The position numbers were made by a program, and so were the translations under genes. DNA of 64,000 nucleotides from Saccharopolyspora sp. SCSIO 74807 (GTDB lineage: Bacteria > Actinomycetota > Actinomycetes > Mycobacteriales > Pseudonocardiaceae), in assembly GCF_037023755.1 (NCBI RefSeq), contig NZ_CP146100.1, forward strand, positions 3,230,001 to 3,294,000, given 5' to 3'. The notes under the pieces were generated by a model. It searched no databases, was not told where the DNA came from, and saw only the letters and a list, made by a program, of their open reading frames with translations. This document shows positions 49,907 to 58,378 of this stretch, one piece after another (positions within the stretch are counted from its first letter, which is position 1; every line of letters begins with the position of its first letter).

Positions 49907-50489
49907 TTTCCGCGGGGTGGCGCCACGGCTGGTGGTCCTCGAAGGGCGGATCGGGCGAAACCGGCGCCGCCTTAGCCGTCCTGTGTGGACGTTCAACGGC
50001 GCCGTCCGGCGGTGTTCGACCGCTCCCGCGTTCCGCCCACCGGGAGCCCGCTGGTCACCGCCCGTGCCGCGACCTGCGCGGCAGCGTGGCGGGCCGGAAC
50101 GCTACGCTGGATGCAGTCAAGATCACTGCCGGACGGGTCCCGGAAGGGGGCCGCAGGCGGTGGTCCGGCACGGCGGCGTGGTGTGCGCAATTCCACTGAC
50201 CGGCCGTTTCGTGCACGGTGCGTGTGGAAGGGATTCGCAACAGGGTGAACGAGCAGGGATTCGCGATCCGGCACCGCGACCGGCCTCGCCCTTACCCGCC
50301 CGCTGCTCCGAACGAGCCAACCCCGAATGGACCAGCGGAGTGGTGATCCGCGGTCCGGGATGCCGAGCCCGCCCGGCCGAACACTACTGCTGGTGACCAT
50401 GTCATGTTCTACTCGTACCGGCGTGCCGGGAAGATCCGGCGGGCCGCAGCACCTACCCGACGACCCTTCACGCACTCAGGGGTAACAAG
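49907..50489. other. 583-bp intergenic region before the secretion-like cluster
   Basis: No confident gene. A -10-like TACGCT is at 50101-50106. A proline-rich 33-codon frame at 50245-50346 is speculative. The long distance before the first gene of the cluster could hold a long 5' leader or distal regulatory sites. No known riboswitch pattern was recognised. Confidence 0.5.
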
Positions 50490-50792
50490 ATGACCGCCAT
50501 GCCGCTGGAAACGTTGGCGCACGTGCAAGCTGCGATGGATCCGCTGGCGCAGCAGACAGGTCTCGGCACAGAAGGCATCCGCGGGTGGATCATCAACAAT
50601 CTGTTGCCGCTGCTGCTGCTGACCGTTGCGCTGCTGCTGCTGTGGCTCGGCGGCGGCAAGGGCGACAACGCCGGAGTGATGCGCCGCGTCGTCGGCGTCT
50701 TCGTCGCGCTGGCGCTGATCGGCTTCGCGGTCACCGGGGCGGGCGTGGACATCGGCACCTTCATCGCCGGCCTGTTCAGCACCAGCGGGTGA
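50490..50792 (+). CDS. Small two-helix membrane protein, VirB2/TrbC pilin-like
   Basis: 100 residues from ATG 50490, with AGGGGT upstream. A short soluble N-terminus of about 30 residues is followed by two hydrophobic helices (NLLPLLLLTVALLLLWLGGG and FVALALIGFAVTGAGVDIG) joined by a basic loop GDNAGVMRRV. That hairpin layout is like VirB2/TrbC-type subunits of type IV systems. It is the first gene of a collinear six-gene set, and a VirB3-like gene follows 6 bp later. Assignment is by topology and context, not by a diagnostic motif. Confidence 0.6.
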   Translation: MTAMPLETLAHVQAAMDPLAQQTGLGTEGIRGWIINNLLPLLLLTVALLLLWLGGGKGDNAGVMRRVVGVFVALALIGFAVTGAGVDIGTFIAGLFSTSG

Positions 50793-50798
50793 TCGGCC

Positions 50799-51374
50799 GT
50801 GCGGATCCGCACCGACGACGAGGTCTACCGGGTCGACGCCGTCTGGCTCGGCCCGCCGAAGGCGACCTTCCCGTGGCGAGCCCGCTACGTGGCATGGGGC
50901 GTGGGAACCGTGGTGTTCCTGGCCGTGCTCGCGGTGGAACGCCGGATGAACATCGGCTTCGGGTTCTTCTCCACCGCGTGGGCGGTGATCATCACGATCG
51001 TGGTTACGCGGATCGTGTGTTCCCGGATCACCCACGAACGGCCGCTAGGGGCGGTGCTGACCATGTGGTTGCGTGAGCTGACCGCGCCACGGGAGAGCAC
51101 CGCGGGACGCGGCGGGGCGGCAGGCGCGGCCAAGCTGCGGGTGCGCGCCGAACGTCCCAGGCCCAAGCCCAAGCAGACCAGCAAGCGCACCGGCCCGGCC
51201 GAGCAGCAGGGCGCGGCCGGGCGGGGCGGGCGGCCCGCCCGATCCCAGCGCAGCACCGGGACGGGGCAGCAGCCCGTCCGCCGCCCCAGGAGGTCCGCGG
51301 GCCAAGGCAGGCCCACCCGCGGGCGAGCGCGTAGCAAGGAGGTTCGCGGTGTTCGGTCGCCGTCGCGGCGGTGA
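50799..51374 (+). CDS. VirB3/PrgI-like membrane protein with a long basic tail
   Basis: 191 residues from GTG 50799. The start RIRTDDEVYRVDAVWLGPPKA precedes two hydrophobic helices (about residues 30-48 and 54-74). The last 95 residues are rich in Arg, Lys, Gly, Pro and Gln (RPRPKPKQTSKRTG), suggesting a cytoplasmic tail able to bind nucleic acid or acidic lipids. VirB3/PrgI proteins are small bitopic partners of VirB4, and the VirB4-like gene starts inside the last 26 bp of this one. Confidence 0.6.
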   Translation: MRIRTDDEVYRVDAVWLGPPKATFPWRARYVAWGVGTVVFLAVLAVERRMNIGFGFFSTAWAVIITIVVTRIVCSRITHERPLGAVLTMWLRELTAPRESTAGRGGAAGAAKLRVRAERPRPKPKQTSKRTGPAEQQGAAGRGGRPARSQRSTGTGQQPVRRPRRSAGQGRPTRGRARSKEVRGVRSPSRR

Positions 51375-54246
51375 GCGCCAGGCTCAGGTTCCCGGCACGC
51401 CCCAGCGCGCCCGCGGCGCGGGGGCGAAGGGCGCCGGATCGAAGGGCAAGCGCAAGGACCGCAGGCTGCCCGACGAGCAGAGCCTGCCCAGCTACACGCC
51501 GTCGATCGCCGCCCGCTCCATCGACGGGCACCTGCTGCGCACCGGGCAGGACGTGTTCGCCTGGTACCGGTTGTCCTCGCAGCGCTGGTCGTTCCGCTCG
51601 GACTCGCAGCGCCAGGACCTGATCGCGGCGATCGCCGGGCAGTACGCGGAGCTGCAGGGCCGCTGGATGCACCTGCGGGTCACCAGCCGCCCGTACCCGA
51701 TCCGGATGTGGGCCGAGGCGCACGTGCACAACGCCCGCGGTGCGCTGCCGGACAGCCCGGGTGCGCTGAGCTTCGACGACTACATGGTCGGCGAGCAGCA
51801 GCAGCTGATGGGCCGGTCGATGGCGGAGAAGGAGGTCTACCTCGGCGTCCAGGTGCAGACCCGCAACGTGGTGGACCGCGCGGTCGAGCGCGCCGCGCCG
51901 CTGCTGCGCAGGGTGTTCCCGGAGGCCGTGGACGCCGAACTCGTCGCCCTGGACAGCGAGATCGAGCACCTGGACCAGGTGATCGGATCCGCCGGGCTGG
52001 ACGGCCGCCCGGTCACCGCCGAGGAGATGTCCTGGCTGATGCACCGGTCCTGCTCGCTGGGCCTGCCCGCGCCGCGCAACATGCCCGCGGTGCCCGGCGC
52101 GGCGTGGGAGCCCGAGGACCTGGCCTCGTTCACCGATGCGGCCGACCTGCACCAGGAGCCGTACGCGCCGACCGCCACGGTGCGCGGCCGCACCGGCTCC
52201 AACGCCGGTGTCAGCAGGCACGTCGCGGTGCTGACCGTGGGCCAGACGCACGGCCTGCAGGTCCCGGAGGTCGACGACCCGTGGTTGCAGCACTCCGACC
52301 GGCTGCCCGCCCCGGTGGAGTGGTCCGCGCGGATTTACGTGCGCCGCCCGGAGGACGTCGGCGGCGAGCTGCAGCGCCAGATGAACAAGGTGCGCTCGCA
52401 GGTTCGCCACTACACCGAGGAACACGGCCTGGAGCCGCCGACCTCGCTGTCCCGCCAGGCGGGCCGGGTGCTGGAGATCGACGACGAGATGACCACCGGT
52501 TTCACCGCGCTCGCCACCCGCGTGCGCTCGTGGTGGCGGCTGGCGGTCTCCGGCCCGACCGAGCGCGACGCGCTCAAGCTGGCCCAGCAGATCCTGGACC
52601 TGTACAAGCCGAAGGTCGCCATCGAGCACCCCGAGGCGCAGTACGCGATGGCCCGCGAGTTCATCCCGGGCGAGCAGCTGGCCTCCGGCGCCTACCTGCG
52701 CCGCGGTTCGGTGGTGTGGGCGGCCGCGGCGGTGCCGCAGGCGACCGCGGAGGTCGGTGACCGGCGCGGCGTGATGCTCGGGGAGACCTGCACCGCGACT
52801 CGGCGGCCGGTGGCGTGGGACCCGTGGATGGCGCAGGAGATCCGCGACGCATCCGGGCTCACGGCCATGGTCGCCGGACTCGGTGGCGGCAAGTCGTTCC
52901 TCGGCGGCGGACTCGTCTACAAGACGTTGCGCGCCGGGGCGCACTGGACGCTGCTGGACCCGTCCGGGCCGCTGGCGGAACTGTGCAAGTTGCCCGAGCT
53001 GCGGCCGTACGCGCGCCCGATCAACCTGCTCAACGCCCAGCCGGGCATCCTCAACCCGTACCGGGTGGTGGCCGAGCCGCAGCTGGATCACTTCGTCGAC
53101 GAGGAAGACCCCGAGCGCGGCTGGCGGCGCGAACGCGCGCTCGCCGCGGCGACCCGGCGGCGCCTGGTGCTGGACGTGCTCACCGGGCTGCTGCCCTACG
53201 AGGTGGCGCGGCTGCCGCAGACCAGGATCGTGCTGCTGCGCGCGGTGCGGGCGGTCGGCGGCCGCCCGGACGCGCACCCCGGCATGGTCTTCGAGGCGCT
53301 GCGCCGGGACGCGTCCGAACACCACGAGCACGCCGTGGTGGTGGCCGACTTCCTGGACGAGCTCCGCGAGCGGATGTCGCTGCTGATCCCGGAGGCGGAC
53401 GCCGACCCGTACTCGGAGACCCGCGAGGACCGGCTCACCGTGCTGACCATGGCCGGGCTGACCCTGCCGAAGGACGGCGTCGGGCGCGAGCACTGGACCG
53501 ACGCCGAAGCGCTCGGCGTGGAGATGCTGAACCTGGCGGCGTGGCTGACCCAGCGCTCGGTCTACGAGCGGCCGAAGAACGAGCGCAAGGGCGTCTGGAT
53601 CGACGAGGCGTTCTTCCTGTCCGAGGTGCCGACCGGGCGGGTGCTGATGAACCGCTTCGCCCGCGACTCCCGCAAGTGGAACGTGCGGGTGCTGCTGTCC
53701 AGCCAGATCCCCGCGGACTTCCTGCGGATCCAGGGCTTCGTGTCCCTTTTGGACTCGGTGTTCGTGGGCAGGCTGGACGACGAGCAGGCCCAGGCCGACG
53801 CGCTGCGGCTGCTGAAGGTGCCGGTCGACGCGGGCTACGAGCAGGTGGTCTCGGCGCTGGGCCGCAGGCCGGGGCCGGCGCGCAACAACAGCGAGCGGGA
53901 CCGCTCGCCGCGCCAGTTCATCTTCGGCGACGGCGCGGGCGGGGTGGAGCGCATCCGCATCGACTTCGGCGGCCCGCACCTGGAGCACCTGCGCAACGCG
54001 CTGGACACCACGCCGGTCGGCGAGGACGAGAGCTCCGAGCGGCTGTCGCTGCCCGGCGGCGAGGGTGCGGCGAACTCGGACAGGCCACCGCCACCGTCCG
54101 CGCCGCCCGAGGACGACTACGACGAAGAGCTCGAAGGCTTCGACGAGCTCGAACTGGAAACCGTCGGCATCGGGCAGGGTGAACAGCACGGCAACGGCAC
54201 CGACCCGCAGCAGCGGTCCGGTCGAGGCGGAGAAGAGCAGCGGTGA
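51349..54246 (+). CDS. VirB4/TraE-like type IV secretion ATPase
   Basis: 965 residues from GTG 51349, with AAGGAGG 6 bp upstream. The N-terminal half (about residues 60-480) resembles the VirB4/TraC receptor-like domain. The RecA-type ATPase has Walker A GLGGGKSF near 509 and Walker B KGVWIDEAFFL near 747. RVLLSSQIPADFLRI follows, typical of VirB4/TraG-family motors that scan for accessory strands. The C-terminus is acidic (EDDYDEELEGFDELELE). It powers substrate or pilus transfer in type IV systems. Similar ATP-binding proteins are widespread on actinobacterial chromosomes without conjugation genes. It overlaps both neighbouring genes. Confidence 0.82.
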   Translation: MFGRRRGGERQAQVPGTPQRARGAGAKGAGSKGKRKDRRLPDEQSLPSYTPSIAARSIDGHLLRTGQDVFAWYRLSSQRWSFRSDSQRQDLIAAIAGQYAELQGRWMHLRVTSRPYPIRMWAEAHVHNARGALPDSPGALSFDDYMVGEQQQLMGRSMAEKEVYLGVQVQTRNVVDRAVERAAPLLRRVFPEAVDAELVALDSEIEHLDQVIGSAGLDGRPVTAEEMSWLMHRSCSLGLPAPRNMPAVPGAAWEPEDLASFTDAADLHQEPYAPTATVRGRTGSNAGVSRHVAVLTVGQTHGLQVPEVDDPWLQHSDRLPAPVEWSARIYVRRPEDVGGELQRQMNKVRSQVRHYTEEHGLEPPTSLSRQAGRVLEIDDEMTTGFTALATRVRSWWRLAVSGPTERDALKLAQQILDLYKPKVAIEHPEAQYAMAREFIPGEQLASGAYLRRGSVVWAAAAVPQATAEVGDRRGVMLGETCTATRRPVAWDPWMAQEIRDASGLTAMVAGLGGGKSFLGGGLVYKTLRAGAHWTLLDPSGPLAELCKLPELRPYARPINLLNAQPGILNPYRVVAEPQLDHFVDEEDPERGWRRERALAAATRRRLVLDVLTGLLPYEVARLPQTRIVLLRAVRAVGGRPDAHPGMVFEALRRDASEHHEHAVVVADFLDELRERMSLLIPEADADPYSETREDRLTVLTMAGLTLPKDGVGREHWTDAEALGVEMLNLAAWLTQRSVYERPKNERKGVWIDEAFFLSEVPTGRVLMNRFARDSRKWNVRVLLSSQIPADFLRIQGFVSLLDSVFVGRLDDEQAQADALRLLKVPVDAGYEQVVSALGRRPGPARNNSERDRSPRQFIFGDGAGGVERIRIDFGGPHLEHLRNALDTTPVGEDESSERLSLPGGEGAANSDRPPPPSAPPEDDYDEELEGFDELELETVGIGQGEQHGNGTDPQQRSGRGGEEQR

Positions 54247-56192
54247 GTTCGCTGGTCGCGCCCACGATCATGGCGGCGCTGATCGTGGCCGTGGCGCTGC
54301 TCGTCCGCCGCCGCACCCGCGGTCGCGCGAGCCGGTCGACGCTGCTGGTGCTGGCCGTGCTGGTCGGCATCCAGGCGCTGATCGGCGCACCCGCCTCCGC
54401 GCAGGGCTTCGACTGCAAGGAGGCGCCGAACCCGGAGCGGCCGGGGTCCGGGATGGTCGGCGAGCTCGACCGGGCGCCGTTGGGCGTGGGCACGCCCGGC
54501 AGCGCCTACGACGAGGTCGGTTACGCCGGTCTAGTGTGGAACACCTACGACCTCGGTTGTGGTCCGCAGGGCGTGACCAACCCGAACGCGCTGGTGGACA
54601 CCTGGCTCGGCAACGAGCTGTTCAACCTCGCCAAGAACGTCGTCGGCATCACCAACGGGCTGCACTACTCGCTGCTCGGGACCGGGCTGGTCGCTCCGCT
54701 GGACGACCTGATCTCCACCGGCACCGTGGCGCTCTACGACAGCGTCTTCACGCCGTGGTTCGGGGTCGCCGCGCTGATCCTGGCGGTGCTGCTGTTCCGC
54801 TACATCTGGCAGGGCGACCTGGCCACGATCGGCAAGCGCACGATGTGGGCGCTCGCGGGGCTGTGGCTGGCTTCGGCGACCTACTTGACGCCGTTGCTCT
54901 ACACCCACGCCCTGGACGAGGTCGTGATCAAGGGAACTTCGGCGGTGCAGGCCGGGTTCCTGCAGAACGTCGGCGTCGATCGGGTCAACGCGCTGCCGAC
55001 GCTGCTGCACGACCAGGTCGTCTACCAGAACTGGCTGCGCGGCGAGTTCGGTGATCCGGAGGGGCCGCAGGCCCAGCAGCTCGGCCGGGAACTGCTGCGC
55101 GCGCAAGCCTGGACCAAGCAAGAGGTCCGGGCCGGATTGGACGCCGGTTCACCGGAGCCGAAGAAGCAGGCGTTCGAGAACGTCGCGGGCCGGATGGGCA
55201 GCGCCTACGGCACCTTCCAAGGGGTGGAGGGCAGCCGCGTCGGCGCGTCGGTGCTCGCGCTGCTGCAGAGCTTCGCGTTCGCCTCGTTCCAGTTGATCGC
55301 GAAGGTCGCGATCCTGCTGGCGCAGGTGCTGCTGCGGGTGATCGTGCTGGCCGGTCCGCTGATCGGCCTGGTGGCGCTGCTCAACCAGCAGATCCTGCGG
55401 GCGGTCGGCCGGGTCGCGGGCGCGGCGATGCTCAACGTGCTGGTGATCTCCGCGATGGCCGGGCTGCACACCTGGGTGCTGGCGTGGATCTTCAACCCGC
55501 TGCGCGGATTCCAGCCGCTGGCGCAGATCCTGCTGGCCGGGCTGGTGACGGTCGTGTTCCTGATGGTCGGCAAACCGGTGCAGCGGATGGGCCAGATGGT
55601 GCAGCTCTCGATCGGCGGCTCCGGCGGCGTCGCGCAGGCTTCCCGCGGCGTGTTCTCCCGGTTCCGCGGCCGTTCCGGCAGGCGCGACGATCCGAGCGGG
55701 GATTTCTGGGACCAGGTGCGGGAATCCGATCCGGACGCGCCGCCGCCGGACCCGGCCGCGCAGCGCGGCAGGCGCCAGGGCAGGCCGGAGGCCGAGCACC
55801 AGTCGGTTTCGGCGACCGCGCAACGCCTGGACCAGCAGGGTTCCCCGTGGACCGCGCTGCCGGGTGCCTCTGCCGCGACCGGGGGCGGCTCCTCCGGTCA
55901 GGCGTTGCCCGCGTCCGGACCGGCGGCGCCACGCCGGCCGGGTGGCGCCGCGGCGCTGCCGGAAGGCCGGGTCAGCCGGGTCGTGGACACCGCACCGGTG
56001 GCCGATGCCTCGTGGGACCGGCGCCACGACGAGGATCCGGTGCTAGTTCCGTCCCGTGTGGACAGCGGGGTGACTCCGGTGGTGCCGGAGCCCGCGACGT
56101 CGCGGCGGTCCGACATGGAAGTGGTCTCCGGCAGGTCGATGCACGTGGTGTACCGGCCATCGCGCGGCCTGGAGGTCGCCGATGAGGATTGA
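54243..56192 (+). CDS. Polytopic membrane protein, VirB6/TrbL-like
   Basis: 649 residues from GTG 54243, overlapping the ATPase gene by 4 bp. An N-terminal helix and an ALIGAPASAQG-type signal-like site are followed by an exported loop with paired cysteines (FDCKEA and LGCGP). Six or so further helices follow (FGVAALILAVLLFRYIWQG to LLAGLVTVVFLMVGKPV), including the LAGPLIGLVALLN segment. The last 170 residues are a disordered Arg/Ser/Pro/Gly-rich cytoplasmic tail. The arrangement is that of VirB6/TrbL/CD1107-type channel subunits of type IV systems. Confidence 0.7.
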   Translation: MSSLVAPTIMAALIVAVALLVRRRTRGRASRSTLLVLAVLVGIQALIGAPASAQGFDCKEAPNPERPGSGMVGELDRAPLGVGTPGSAYDEVGYAGLVWNTYDLGCGPQGVTNPNALVDTWLGNELFNLAKNVVGITNGLHYSLLGTGLVAPLDDLISTGTVALYDSVFTPWFGVAALILAVLLFRYIWQGDLATIGKRTMWALAGLWLASATYLTPLLYTHALDEVVIKGTSAVQAGFLQNVGVDRVNALPTLLHDQVVYQNWLRGEFGDPEGPQAQQLGRELLRAQAWTKQEVRAGLDAGSPEPKKQAFENVAGRMGSAYGTFQGVEGSRVGASVLALLQSFAFASFQLIAKVAILLAQVLLRVIVLAGPLIGLVALLNQQILRAVGRVAGAAMLNVLVISAMAGLHTWVLAWIFNPLRGFQPLAQILLAGLVTVVFLMVGKPVQRMGQMVQLSIGGSGGVAQASRGVFSRFRGRSGRRDDPSGDFWDQVRESDPDAPPPDPAAQRGRRQGRPEAEHQSVSATAQRLDQQGSPWTALPGASAATGGGSSGQALPASGPAAPRRPGGAAALPEGRVSRVVDTAPVADASWDRRHDEDPVLVPSRVDSGVTPVVPEPATSRRSDMEVVSGRSMHVVYRPSRGLEVADED

Positions 56193-56248
56193 GCAGCAAC
56201 GACCCGGGCGGGCGCGCACCCGCCCGGTGGTGTGAAGGGGAACGCGCG

Positions 56249-56830
56249 ATGCCGATCCGAACGCACCGCGGGCGCGCCGCGGTCTACCGGAGGCTGTGGG
56301 GCTGGCCGCTGCGCTCGCCGAAGCACCTGGTGGGCACCGTGATCGTGCTGGCGGCGCTGGCCACGACCATCGGGATCCTGCTGCCCGATCCGCTGCCGGT
56401 GAGCCGCACCCCGCGGCCGGACACGACGGGCCAGCGCCAGGAAGTCCCGGCCGCGCCGAGCACGCCGGTCGCCGCACCGCCGACGTTCCGGGTGCCGAAC
56501 ACTCCCGCCCCGCCCGCGCCGCCGAGCCCGCAGGGCTTATCGGTGGTCGAGGCGTGGGGCAAGCAGTGGGTGAACCACCCGCCGGGCACGGCCGCGCCGG
56601 AGTGGGTGCAGCGCCTCGCGCCGTACACCACCGAAGAGTTCATCACCGAGATGGCCACGATCGACCCGGCGAACGTGCCCGCCACGGCGGTGACCGGCCC
56701 GCCCGCCGCGCAGCGTTCCACCGCGAACTCGATGGACGTGCGGCTGCCCACCGACGGCGGGGACGTCCAGGTAGAAGTGATCAACACACCGCAGGGATGG
56801 CGCGTCTCCGGCTACGACAAGGTGAGCTGA
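56249..56830 (+). CDS. Bitopic membrane protein, possibly VirB8/TcpC-like
   Basis: 193 residues from ATG 56249 (AAGGGGA upstream). A TTG at 56189 is less likely. A basic N-terminus leads into one membrane helix (LVGTVIVLAALATTIGILL), a Pro/Ala/Thr-rich linker of about 50 residues, then a compact domain of about 100 residues ending VQVEVINTPQGWRVSGYD. The terminal strand-turn-strand (a lumenal domain ending in a beta sheet after an alpha segment) is compatible with the NTF2-like fold of VirB8/TcpC. The fold cannot be proven from sequence by eye. It is directly followed by the NlpC/P60 gene. Confidence 0.55.
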   Translation: MPIRTHRGRAAVYRRLWGWPLRSPKHLVGTVIVLAALATTIGILLPDPLPVSRTPRPDTTGQRQEVPAAPSTPVAAPPTFRVPNTPAPPAPPSPQGLSVVEAWGKQWVNHPPGTAAPEWVQRLAPYTTEEFITEMATIDPANVPATAVTGPPAAQRSTANSMDVRLPTDGGDVQVEVINTPQGWRVSGYDKVS

Positions 56831-56831
56831 C

Positions 56832-57821
56832 ATGCGAAAACTCCTGGTGGCGATCGTCGTGCTGGCCGGTTTCGCCGGGCTGGTCGGGGTCGGTGCGCTC
56901 AGCGTGCTGCTCACGGCCGGGCGCGGCGCGCAGAGCTGGGGGGATTGCAGCGCGAGCCTCGGCCCGTGGGGCGACGGCAAGGGGCGCGGTGAGCGCGACG
57001 CCGCCGCGCTGCAGCAGGAGTCGGTCGGCATCGCGCAGCGCATCATCGAGATCGGCCAGCAGCGCGGCATGTCGCCGCGGGCCATGCAGATCGCCATCCA
57101 GGCGGGCAAGACCGAGTCGAACCTGGCGAACCTGACCCACGGCGACCGGGATTCGCTGGGCATCTTCCAGATGCGGCCGTCGATGGGCTGGGGCAGCGTC
57201 GCCCAGATCACCGACGTGAACTACCAGATCAACAAGTTCTACGACACATTGCTGGAGGTGCCGGGCTGGGAGGAGATGCGGCCCGGCGCCGCGGCCCAGC
57301 GGGTGGAGCGATCCGCCTACCCGATGCGCTACCACCAGTGGGAGCCGATGGCCGCGCACCTGGTCAGCACCAAGGGCCAGGTTCCCGGGTTCAGCGGTTG
57401 CGAGGACATGGCCTCGTCGAACGTGCTGGCCGGCAAGGCGATCGACTACGCCGACGACCAGGTCGGCAAGCCGTACGTGTGGGGCGCGGCCGGACCGACG
57501 GCGTTCGACTGCTCGGGGCTGACCCAGATGGCCTGGAAAGCGTCCGGTGTGGACATTCCGAAGTATTCGCAGTCCCAGTACACCCAGGGCGGCGCGCACA
57601 TCGCGCTGGAGCAGGCGCAGCCGGGGGACCTGGTGTTCTGGGGCCACGGCCGGGAACCCGCGGCGATCCACCACGTGGCGCTCTACTTGGGCAACAACGA
57701 GGTGCTGCACGCGCCGCAGCCCGGTGAGTCGGTGGAGCGGACGAAGATGTGGGACGGCGGCGAGCTGCTTCCGACGGTGGTGCGCCCGGCCGCGGACACC
57801 CCCGCGCAGGCGGCCGGTTGA
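56832..57821 (+). CDS. Bifunctional lysozyme-like + NlpC/P60 cell wall hydrolase (VirB1-like)
   Basis: 329 residues from ATG 56832, 1 bp after the previous stop. An N-terminal helix acts as signal anchor. Residues about 55-165 look like a transglycosylase/lysozyme-type domain (AMQIAIQAGKTESNLANL with the candidate catalytic Glu; DSLGIFQMRPSMGWG). The C-terminus is NlpC/P60 with Cys227 in FDCSGLTQMAW and His281 in HHVALYLGN. Together they cut glycan strands and stem peptides of peptidoglycan. In type IV machines such VirB1-type enzymes open the wall for the channel, which suits its place as the last gene of the cluster. Confidence 0.88.
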   Translation: MRKLLVAIVVLAGFAGLVGVGALSVLLTAGRGAQSWGDCSASLGPWGDGKGRGERDAAALQQESVGIAQRIIEIGQQRGMSPRAMQIAIQAGKTESNLANLTHGDRDSLGIFQMRPSMGWGSVAQITDVNYQINKFYDTLLEVPGWEEMRPGAAAQRVERSAYPMRYHQWEPMAAHLVSTKGQVPGFSGCEDMASSNVLAGKAIDYADDQVGKPYVWGAAGPTAFDCSGLTQMAWKASGVDIPKYSQSQYTQGGAHIALEQAQPGDLVFWGHGREPAAIHHVALYLGNNEVLHAPQPGESVERTKMWDGGELLPTVVRPAADTPAQAAG

Positions 57822-57919: not shown

Positions 57920-58378
57920 ATGTTCACCCCTGACCCCATTCCGCGGCGTTCCGCACCCCCGGCCTCGAGCACGCCCCTGGGTGACTACTTGTCCCGGTCC
58001 GGGCACGGGGTCGACGGCAACTACGCGGTGCTGCCGCGTTCGCTGGCGGAGTCGATGCCGTTGCCGTGGCAGCAGCACATGCGCCACCTGCTGGCGGAGC
58101 TGCACCAGGCGTTCGGGCACCTGCAGTGGCCGGTGTACCGGGTGGTTCCCTCGCGCTACGAGCGGCTCTCGGACTTGGACGACGACCAGCTGGCCGAGGT
58201 CGGCTGCACCGTGGAGGTCGGTGACGACGGGGAGCTGGAGTACCGGATGCGCGACGGCAGGCGCGTCGACGACCCGGCCAACCACCACGTCCTGGTGTCC
58301 TGCCTCGACCCGATCCCGGGCAGGCCGCCGGGCGGATCGCAGCCGGCCCCGGGCGCCCCACCGCCTCCGGCGTGGTGA
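57920..58378 (+). CDS. Hypothetical actinobacterial protein, 152 residues
   Basis: ATG 57920 follows GGGAGGAAG. The body (residues 25-125) contains SLAESMPLPWQQHMRHLLAE, VYRVVPSRYERLSDLDDDQL and MRDGRRVDDPANHHVLVS. It ends in a Pro/Gly-rich tail. No known domain is recognised. Coding is supported by strong codon bias and a good ribosome-binding site. Because it follows the secretion-like cluster on the same strand after 98 bp, it may be a related accessory protein, but nothing shows this directly. Confidence 0.7.
   Translation: MFTPDPIPRRSAPPASSTPLGDYLSRSGHGVDGNYAVLPRSLAESMPLPWQQHMRHLLAELHQAFGHLQWPVYRVVPSRYERLSDLDDDQLAEVGCTVEVGDDGELEYRMRDGRRVDDPANHHVLVSCLDPIPGRPPGGSQPAPGAPPPPAW

Follow-up and report, generated by a model that had tools for sequence, protein, structure and literature searches.

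The stretch of DNA analysed here (the window) comprises 64,000 nucleotides of Saccharopolyspora sp. SCSIO 74807 (NZ_CP146100.1, positions 3,230,001 to 3,294,000) and carries a cluster of genes resembling the core of a type IV secretion system (T4SS). The genome is a single contig of 6.69 Mb and the cluster is chromosomal. Six consecutive genes on the plus strand (50490–57821), arranged head to tail, encode proteins of 100, 191, 965, 649, 193 and 329 amino acids (aa), and are separated by +6, −26, −4, +56 and +1 bp, negative values denoting overlaps. Both the position and the tight spacing of the genes had been described in a first-pass annotation made from the sequence, and they are borne out here. 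A seventh conserved gene, overlooked in that annotation, begins 98 bp past the last of the six. As argued below, we are confident that these genes represent a conserved, non-conjugative T4SS core. The features of the locus are the following:

50383..50417, plus strand: candidate promoter or operator, a conserved element lying 72 bp upstream of the first gene
50490..50792, plus strand: VirB2-like small protein P0001, assigned by position and topology only
50799..51374, plus strand: VirB3-like protein P0002, directly 5' of the VirB4 gene, assigned by topology
51349..54246, plus strand: VirB4 ATPase P0003, 965 aa, assigned by Pfam, NCBIfam and PDB profile matches and by motifs
54243..56192, plus strand: VirB6-like polytopic membrane protein P0004, assigned by a weak NCBIfam match and hydrophobic windows
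56249..56830, plus strand: VirB8-like bitopic protein, 193 aa from the ATG at 56249, with a predicted NTF2-fold outer domain
56832..57821, plus strand: VirB1-like two-domain wall hydrolase P0006 (muramidase and NlpC/P60)
57920..58378, plus strand: seventh gene (P0014), conserved in position after the VirB1-like gene, product without a hydrophobic segment

Proteins encoded by the cluster

A simple gene caller based on GC content by codon position retained five of the six open reading frames (ORFs), dropped that of VirB3 and gave the VirB8 gene an upstream TTG start. The six ORFs are not a product of chance, since they recur in the same order in 20 of 20 loci of the family Pseudonocardiaceae; the same holds for 76 of a set of 80 named loci, which are the best 80 of 436 relatives found.

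The assignments of VirB4, VirB8 and VirB1 are supported. P0003 matches Pfam AAA_10 (2.2e-18) and NCBIfam TcpF (6.6e-15, under that model's cut-off), and the profile of its family matches the VirB4 structure 4ag5 in the PDB (4.8e-7); the Walker motifs GLGGGKS and hhhDE are found in 79/80 and 80/80 named loci, respectively. The 193-residue candidate for VirB8 is predicted to adopt an NTF2 fold of the VirB8 kind, as the first-pass annotation had anticipated. P0006 matches Pfam NLPC_P60 (2.9e-24) and, at the structural level, 4fdy over residues 60–297 and the muramidase 8b2e over residues 72–176. Its residues Glu95, Cys227 and His281, which we take to be catalytic, are invariant in all 76 family copies compared. 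P0004 is likely VirB6, with nine hydrophobic windows, some of them overlapping, and a match to the CD3337/EF1877 family (NF046089) at 4e-7, although the score of 29 bits is far below that model's cut-off of 120; its gene is recognised in 79 of the 80 named loci. The identities proposed earlier for the two small proteins, both present in 80/80 named loci, rest on gene order and topology and are unproven by profile. P0001 consists of two hydrophobic helices joined by a short basic loop; its window copy has no Pfam match, and TrbC/VirB2 is matched by one of 24 aligned copies (E 0.093). Likewise, P0002 combines two hydrophobic helices with a basic tail, its window copy has no Pfam match at E 0.1, and TcpE is matched by one of 20 aligned copies (E 0.008).

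The seventh gene follows VirB1 in 76 of the 80 named loci, and no copy was seen next to clusters from other families among the loci compared or listed. Its product in the window gave a model with a predicted local distance difference test score (pLDDT) of 70.9, for which the structure search returned no fold match, and its matches in PHROG are weak and unannotated. In many relatives (loci L123, L152, L162, L174, L184 and others) the seventh protein bears a long proline-rich tail; 31 of the 76 copies reach at least 240 aa, including that of L142, which is read across runs of N. A conserved basic motif of the type FGPTG-PTEIPYRYR is present in 26 of the 76 copies, at the end of the long tail in those listed, and is absent from the window's protein. 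A polymorphic toxin was considered for the nature of these tails and rejected, as they appear by eye to be proline-rich and of low complexity.

Distribution, gene order and selection

The cluster is found across the whole of the sampled Pseudonocardiaceae, the family that includes Saccharopolyspora (f1 among our working family numbers). Searching 60 genomes with P0003 yielded matches in 46, including all 36 Pseudonocardiaceae (the own genome and 35 others, 66–92% identity). A second survey of 150 genomes gave some match in 70, among them strong matches in 25 genomes of this family, 19 of which were new. Thus, all 55 Pseudonocardiaceae genomes listed (36 plus the 19 new) contain VirB4, with one strong match each, a count that relies on the partly listed unmatched genomes seeming to be ordered by kinship, starting with other families. 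A survey of 396 genomes gave at least 15 positives, an undercount, because only two candidates were scored per genome, as against six in the surveys of 150 and 148 genomes. Beyond the family, matches above 1000 bits occur, among those listed, in f15 (22 genomes), f13 (five), f11 (two), f9 (two), f7 (one) and f5 (one), and single strong matches in genomes G499 (f4, 793 bits) and G631 (f103, 857 bits). In a class sample of 148 genomes, family f101 scored 265–406 bits in 12 genomes. The earlier suggestion of similar clusters in other actinobacteria was partly wrong. It fails for f8, guessed to represent Mycobacterium, where the 150-genome survey gave no VirB4 match above 36 bits, and for f18, where the class sample gave none above 73 bits; f18, inferred to be Streptomyces-like from its cmd genes (compared below), has cmd instead. 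A VirB4 88% identical and of the Pseudonocardiaceae type is found in L166, labelled Rhodococcus rhodnii NRRL B-16535, a record that is probably mislabelled or contaminated.

Gene order is equally stable. All seven genes follow one another in the 20 family loci and the 76 named loci mentioned above; of the four incomplete named loci, L133 and L154 stop at contig ends, and L153 and L160 contain runs of N whose position relative to the genes was unchecked. The loci of f5, f7, f9, f11, f13 and f15 share the order of the recognised genes, VirB2 being unrecognised in L060, L062 and L063 and VirB8 in L066. Loci of this type adjoin genes that appear by eye to be housekeeping-like, presumably infC-rpmI-rplT (L061, L062), mshC (L059) and folP (L063) relatives, and the seventh gene is absent where it was looked for. 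In f101 the order is kept, with extra genes; this version is represented by L226–L229, with a presumed sdhA-like gene near L226. A second chromosomal VirB lineage is seen in f5 and f11 (L067, L068, L069); L068 and L069 each contain a gene resembling that of a coupling protein, and L067 and L069 contain what we take, by eye, to be gua-type genes. In genus g303 (f15) a stop in VirB4 was flagged in three genomes and a broken gene was considered; this was rejected, as the ORFs are open over 885–889 aligned residues and, in G517, the flagged stop is the alignment running past the gene's own stop codon.

Within the fetched stretches of the 80 named loci, the neighbours include an RNase H/phosphatase gene (54/80), an RNase II gene (51/80) and a 62-aa ORF (66/80). 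An integrated integrative conjugative element (ICE) or recent island was rejected, given the presence in all listed family genomes with shared neighbours; the first-pass annotation had seen no integrase or att site, for which no search with a dedicated tool was made. ARAGORN detected no tRNA gene in the window.

Selection was estimated as the ratio of nonsynonymous to synonymous substitution rates (dN/dS) against six Saccharopolyspora-like relatives, with a simple method applied to very GC-rich genomes. The values are 0.14–0.23 for VirB4, 0.10–0.34 for VirB2, 0.24–0.45 for VirB3 and 0.16–0.26 for the seventh gene, and 0.30–0.66 for VirB8, VirB1 and VirB6, the fastest-evolving parts; all genes remain below 0.7 in all six comparisons. 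Identity to the same relatives reaches 86–92% for VirB4 and 78–95% for VirB2, against 70–84% for the adjacent RNase II, so that VirB4 is better conserved than this neighbour in six of six comparisons. As read from these coding sequences, the cluster is under purifying selection. Together with the intact motifs and the presence in all listed family genomes, this makes it extremely improbable that the cluster is what is left of an integrated conjugative plasmid, in decay and without function, a reading to which the failure to find a coupling protein or a relaxase at the cluster loci would otherwise lend itself.

The 35-base element upstream of the first gene is almost invariant across Saccharopolyspora loci, within an otherwise variable upstream region. 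It recurs with 0–10 mismatches in 17 named loci (L105–L121) and with at most eight in 16 of the 80, whereas shuffled controls never fell below 14. When the own genome was scanned with a 23-letter pattern taken from the element, one site matched exactly and just two others matched, each with three mismatches; at this match quality the element is unique in its genome. A regulon sharing the element was rejected, since the three matches with up to three mismatches equal the three of a reversed control. The element holds a TGAC-CAT-GTCA inverted repeat, in which no known binding site was recognised, and a promoter and terminator scan of the locus gave no lead.

Relaxases, pumps and plasmid relatives

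The absence of a nearby relaxase and coupling protein, a central point of the first-pass annotation, holds within the limits of a tblastn test, in which neither six queries for coupling proteins or pumps nor one for TrwC had any match in 119 cluster loci (2.1 Mb) or in the whole window. Among 14 control loci, 12 were matched, nine of them through a query from a different locus; since the test failed on the other two (L067 and L081), a diverged pump might go unnoticed in this search. Across 19 family genomes (G000–G018), PF08751 was detected in 10, PF03432 in five and PF12696 in 15. Thus, relaxase and coupling parts come and go, and the cluster stays. Two of these genomes, G002 (of the window's own genus, 70 contigs) and G016 (one contig), possess the cluster and none of the three families.

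The own genome lacks PF03432, the search for relaxase families having covered this one and PF08751. Its nearest PF08751 match, a TrwC relaxase at 5.02 Mb, lies about 1.74 Mb from the cluster, in an island (L091, L092; G000:C1:5008000-5047000) that carries, by eye, a TraG-type coupling protein and PrgI/VirB4-like genes of its own; the PrgI label, here and below, is our presumption. This island was rejected as a partner of the cluster, as it brings its own machinery. Four PF12696 matches are present, all outside the cluster, the three weaker ones in L100, L101 and L102. These are PrgI/VirB4/type IV coupling protein (T4CP)-like loci, and the T4CP-like protein is 99.9% identical between L101 and L102. 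A profile of plasmid pumps gives 765–958 bits for pumps that are included in it, and its best match in the own genome reaches 60 bits, over the motor core of an FtsK-like protein of 854 aa. The combination of a relaxase and a coupling protein or pump with VirB genes, by which conjugative systems are recognised, was thus not found at the cluster. For the two relaxase families searched, the cluster corresponds to the definition of a MOBless T4SS, a VirB4 cluster without a relaxase within 60 ORFs (PMC3158045).

Relatives of this VirB4 are also encoded in 88 PLSDB plasmid records, including those of Streptomyces (e.g., pSM17C), Nonomuraea, Pseudonocardia and Rhodococcus, with about 33–42% identity among the 30 matches listed. 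All eight records examined have, in this order, two small genes, an ATPase gene, a large gene, one of middle size and a wall hydrolase gene; gene homology was tested in four of them, and the other four were judged by annotation and size. The Nonomuraea plasmid has an extra small ORF and its VirB2 was not recognised, and two Rhodococcus records carry, by annotation, a different type of wall hydrolase. The seventh gene was not found in the four plasmid records searched for it. An annotated FtsK/SpoIIIE- or T4CP-like transfer gene lies within 12 kb in seven of the eight records, and seven of the eight are typed non-mobilizable. In the Pseudonocardia plasmid, which has no annotated pump, a 72-bit match to the pump profile occurs about 6 kb past the hydrolase; its identity is unsure, because this score is no stronger than the 77 bits of an FtsK-like protein in G020. 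The loci L079, L080, L082 and L245–L248 combine a VirB set with an FtsK/T4CP-like pump, and six of the seven are non-mobilizable according to MOB-suite; such plasmids possibly follow a hybrid mode of conjugation, between TraB-type transfer of double-stranded DNA and the classical T4SS.

In the VirB4 tree, the Pseudonocardiaceae group with the plasmid sequences and f7 (support 98/99, and 97 in a quick tree), and the approximately unbiased test rejects a single clade of all chromosomal sequences (p 0.009), with the caveats that the plasmid branches are long and that the group was chosen after the first tree had been viewed. This grouping suggests that the Pseudonocardiaceae cluster probably has a history distinct from that of the f11/f13/f15 cluster. 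For the former, capture from plasmid to chromosome is a simpler direction than the reverse.

These plasmids also raise the question of whether the cluster is an orphan mating channel, borrowed in trans by mobilisable plasmids or islands that bring their own relaxase or FtsK-like pump. The many actinobacterial relaxases reported alongside few T4SS (PMC3158045) would fit this, as does the pairing of the same gene set with a pump on plasmids. However, host selection for a channel that serves parasites would be unlikely to yield presence in 55 of 55 genomes, the relaxase island of the own genome has VirB4-like and coupling genes of its own, and deletion of the analogous cmd genes of Streptomyces did not significantly alter transfer of an SLP2-derived plasmid, a result mentioned as data not shown (PMC2782261). 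Hence, we regard this explanation as quite unlikely.

Possible function and comparison with known systems

The closest system found that has been studied by experiment is the cmdABCDEF cluster of S. coelicolor (SCO4126–4131), six co-transcribed chromosomal genes that are conserved in several Streptomyces and include a VirB4-like ATPase located at the membrane (PMC2782261). According to that study, deletion mutants form fewer spores, aberrant branches and poor septa, with 6–8% anucleate spores against 0.1%; several of them overproduce actinorhodin, whereas the cmdA mutant looked normal, and changes of K90 or K404 in CmdB abolish complementation. Its authors suggested a membrane complex involved in chromosome segregation. 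The window cluster resembles cmd in its chromosomal location, VirB4-like ATPase and lack of a relaxase. Nevertheless, in the cmd candidates compared here (L208–L210, matched by size and order, i.e., six genes with an ATPase of about 475 aa, and not by accession), VirB4 is split over two genes and the gene order differs. Identity of the two systems was rejected: blastp of the window VirB4 against these candidates gave nothing better than E 2, its profile scored 7.6 bits against CmdB, and the own genome contains no CmdB match above 57 bits, while CmdB is 91–100% identical across the 12 f18 genomes listed. Against the cmd candidates, scores of about 14 bits were obtained with the VirB2- and VirB8-type profiles, a weak sign of possible remote kinship. 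The two clusters are therefore analogues and at most remote relatives.

A wall-spanning core without DNA-loading parts was probably reused within the organism's own life cycle, and it is from the cmd deletion phenotypes that we infer such a role for the window cluster. The best overall explanation, which we would put at about an even chance, is a conjugation-derived, relaxase-less T4SS core that has been domesticated for a task in the envelope or the life cycle; the more specific notion of a developmental use at the cell envelope, drawn by analogy, is tentative and falls slightly short of even. An actinomycete plasmid-type conjugation module would have been domesticated no later than in the common ancestor of the Pseudonocardiaceae. 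VirB8 and VirB6 would form a channel around the membrane-bound VirB4 ATPase, VirB1 would open the wall locally, the VirB2-like helices may form the lining of the channel or lengthen it, and the missing cytoplasmic loading part could be replaced or regulated by the seventh protein. If cmd is a guide, the machine may open the wall or carry out transport at tips or at the septa of hyphae or spores during mycelial life. An extension of this idea, which must be considered a long shot, holds that domestication took place repeatedly in actinomycetes (Pseudonocardiaceae, the sister module of f11/f13/f15, f101 and Streptomyces cmd) and that the channel of the window's family uses the cell's FtsK, in a hypothetical partnership, in place of the plasmid pump, to move chromosomal DNA across the wall at septa or to clear it by this route. 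The conserved envelope apparatus with a non-conjugative use proposed in the first-pass annotation is thus supported as far as it could be tested, the use itself being conditional on the cmd analogy.

The main rival to a life-cycle role is a relaxase-less T4SS that exports proteins without a coupling protein, in the manner of the Ptl or Brucella systems. Its cargo would be wall enzymes, signals or antibacterial effectors, released into the medium or delivered to neighbouring cells. VirB4 clusters without a relaxase have been treated as putative protein exporters (PMC3158045), and known VirD4-less systems export proteins (PMC12857230). Moreover, VirB8, VirB1 and VirB6 are the fastest-evolving components, and the basic motif of the seventh protein stands, in the copies listed, behind a long proline-rich tail. 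However, no cargo or toxin is evident by eye among the listed ORFs, for which no dedicated cargo or toxin search was made, and the window's own seventh protein lacks the tail motif; export is accordingly judged unlikely, though a serious candidate. Far less probable is a DNA-uptake (competence) machine, against which it counts that we know of no report of natural competence across the Pseudonocardiaceae. Its model would be the ComB system of Helicobacter, which comprises VirB2–4 and VirB6–10 without VirD4 and is thus partly similar in composition (PMC12857230).

A T4SS core kept across an antibiotic-producing family of mould-like soil bacteria without a recognisable DNA-loading part clearly illustrates how conjugation machinery can become a house organ. 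It offers a second system, beside Streptomyces cmd, for studying the role of relaxase-less T4SS in multicellular bacteria, and its function is directly testable by experiment.

A literature search, in which subscription journals were poorly covered, found no description of this cluster. A VirB4-like gene is mentioned for Micromonospora lupini and Frankia, in passages without functional work that do not establish its identity with this cluster. A survey of actinobacterial ICEs lists 17 putative T4SS-type elements, its main text not containing the word Saccharopolyspora (PMC3218068), and the relevant part of a review of VirD4-less systems names no actinobacterial example (PMC12857230). The T4SS of Patescibacteria are likewise chromosomal, monoderm, mostly relaxase-less and thought to be co-opted, although they belong to a separate lineage and many of the genomes encode VirD4-type coupling proteins (PMC12102498). 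The six-gene VirB modules of plasmids share the gene order of the window cluster, and differ in their plasmid location and nearby pump. Systems of the Tn916, pCW3 and pIP501 type match it in their VirB4, VirB8 and two-domain VirB1 parts, and work with a relaxase and a coupling protein. MOBless T4SS, described in a survey that found few T4SS in actinobacteria and read as probable protein exporters (PMC3158045), are already known and share the lack of a relaxase; what is new here is a relaxase-less T4SS core that extends throughout an actinomycete family and in which, additionally, no recognisable coupling protein accompanies the VirB genes.

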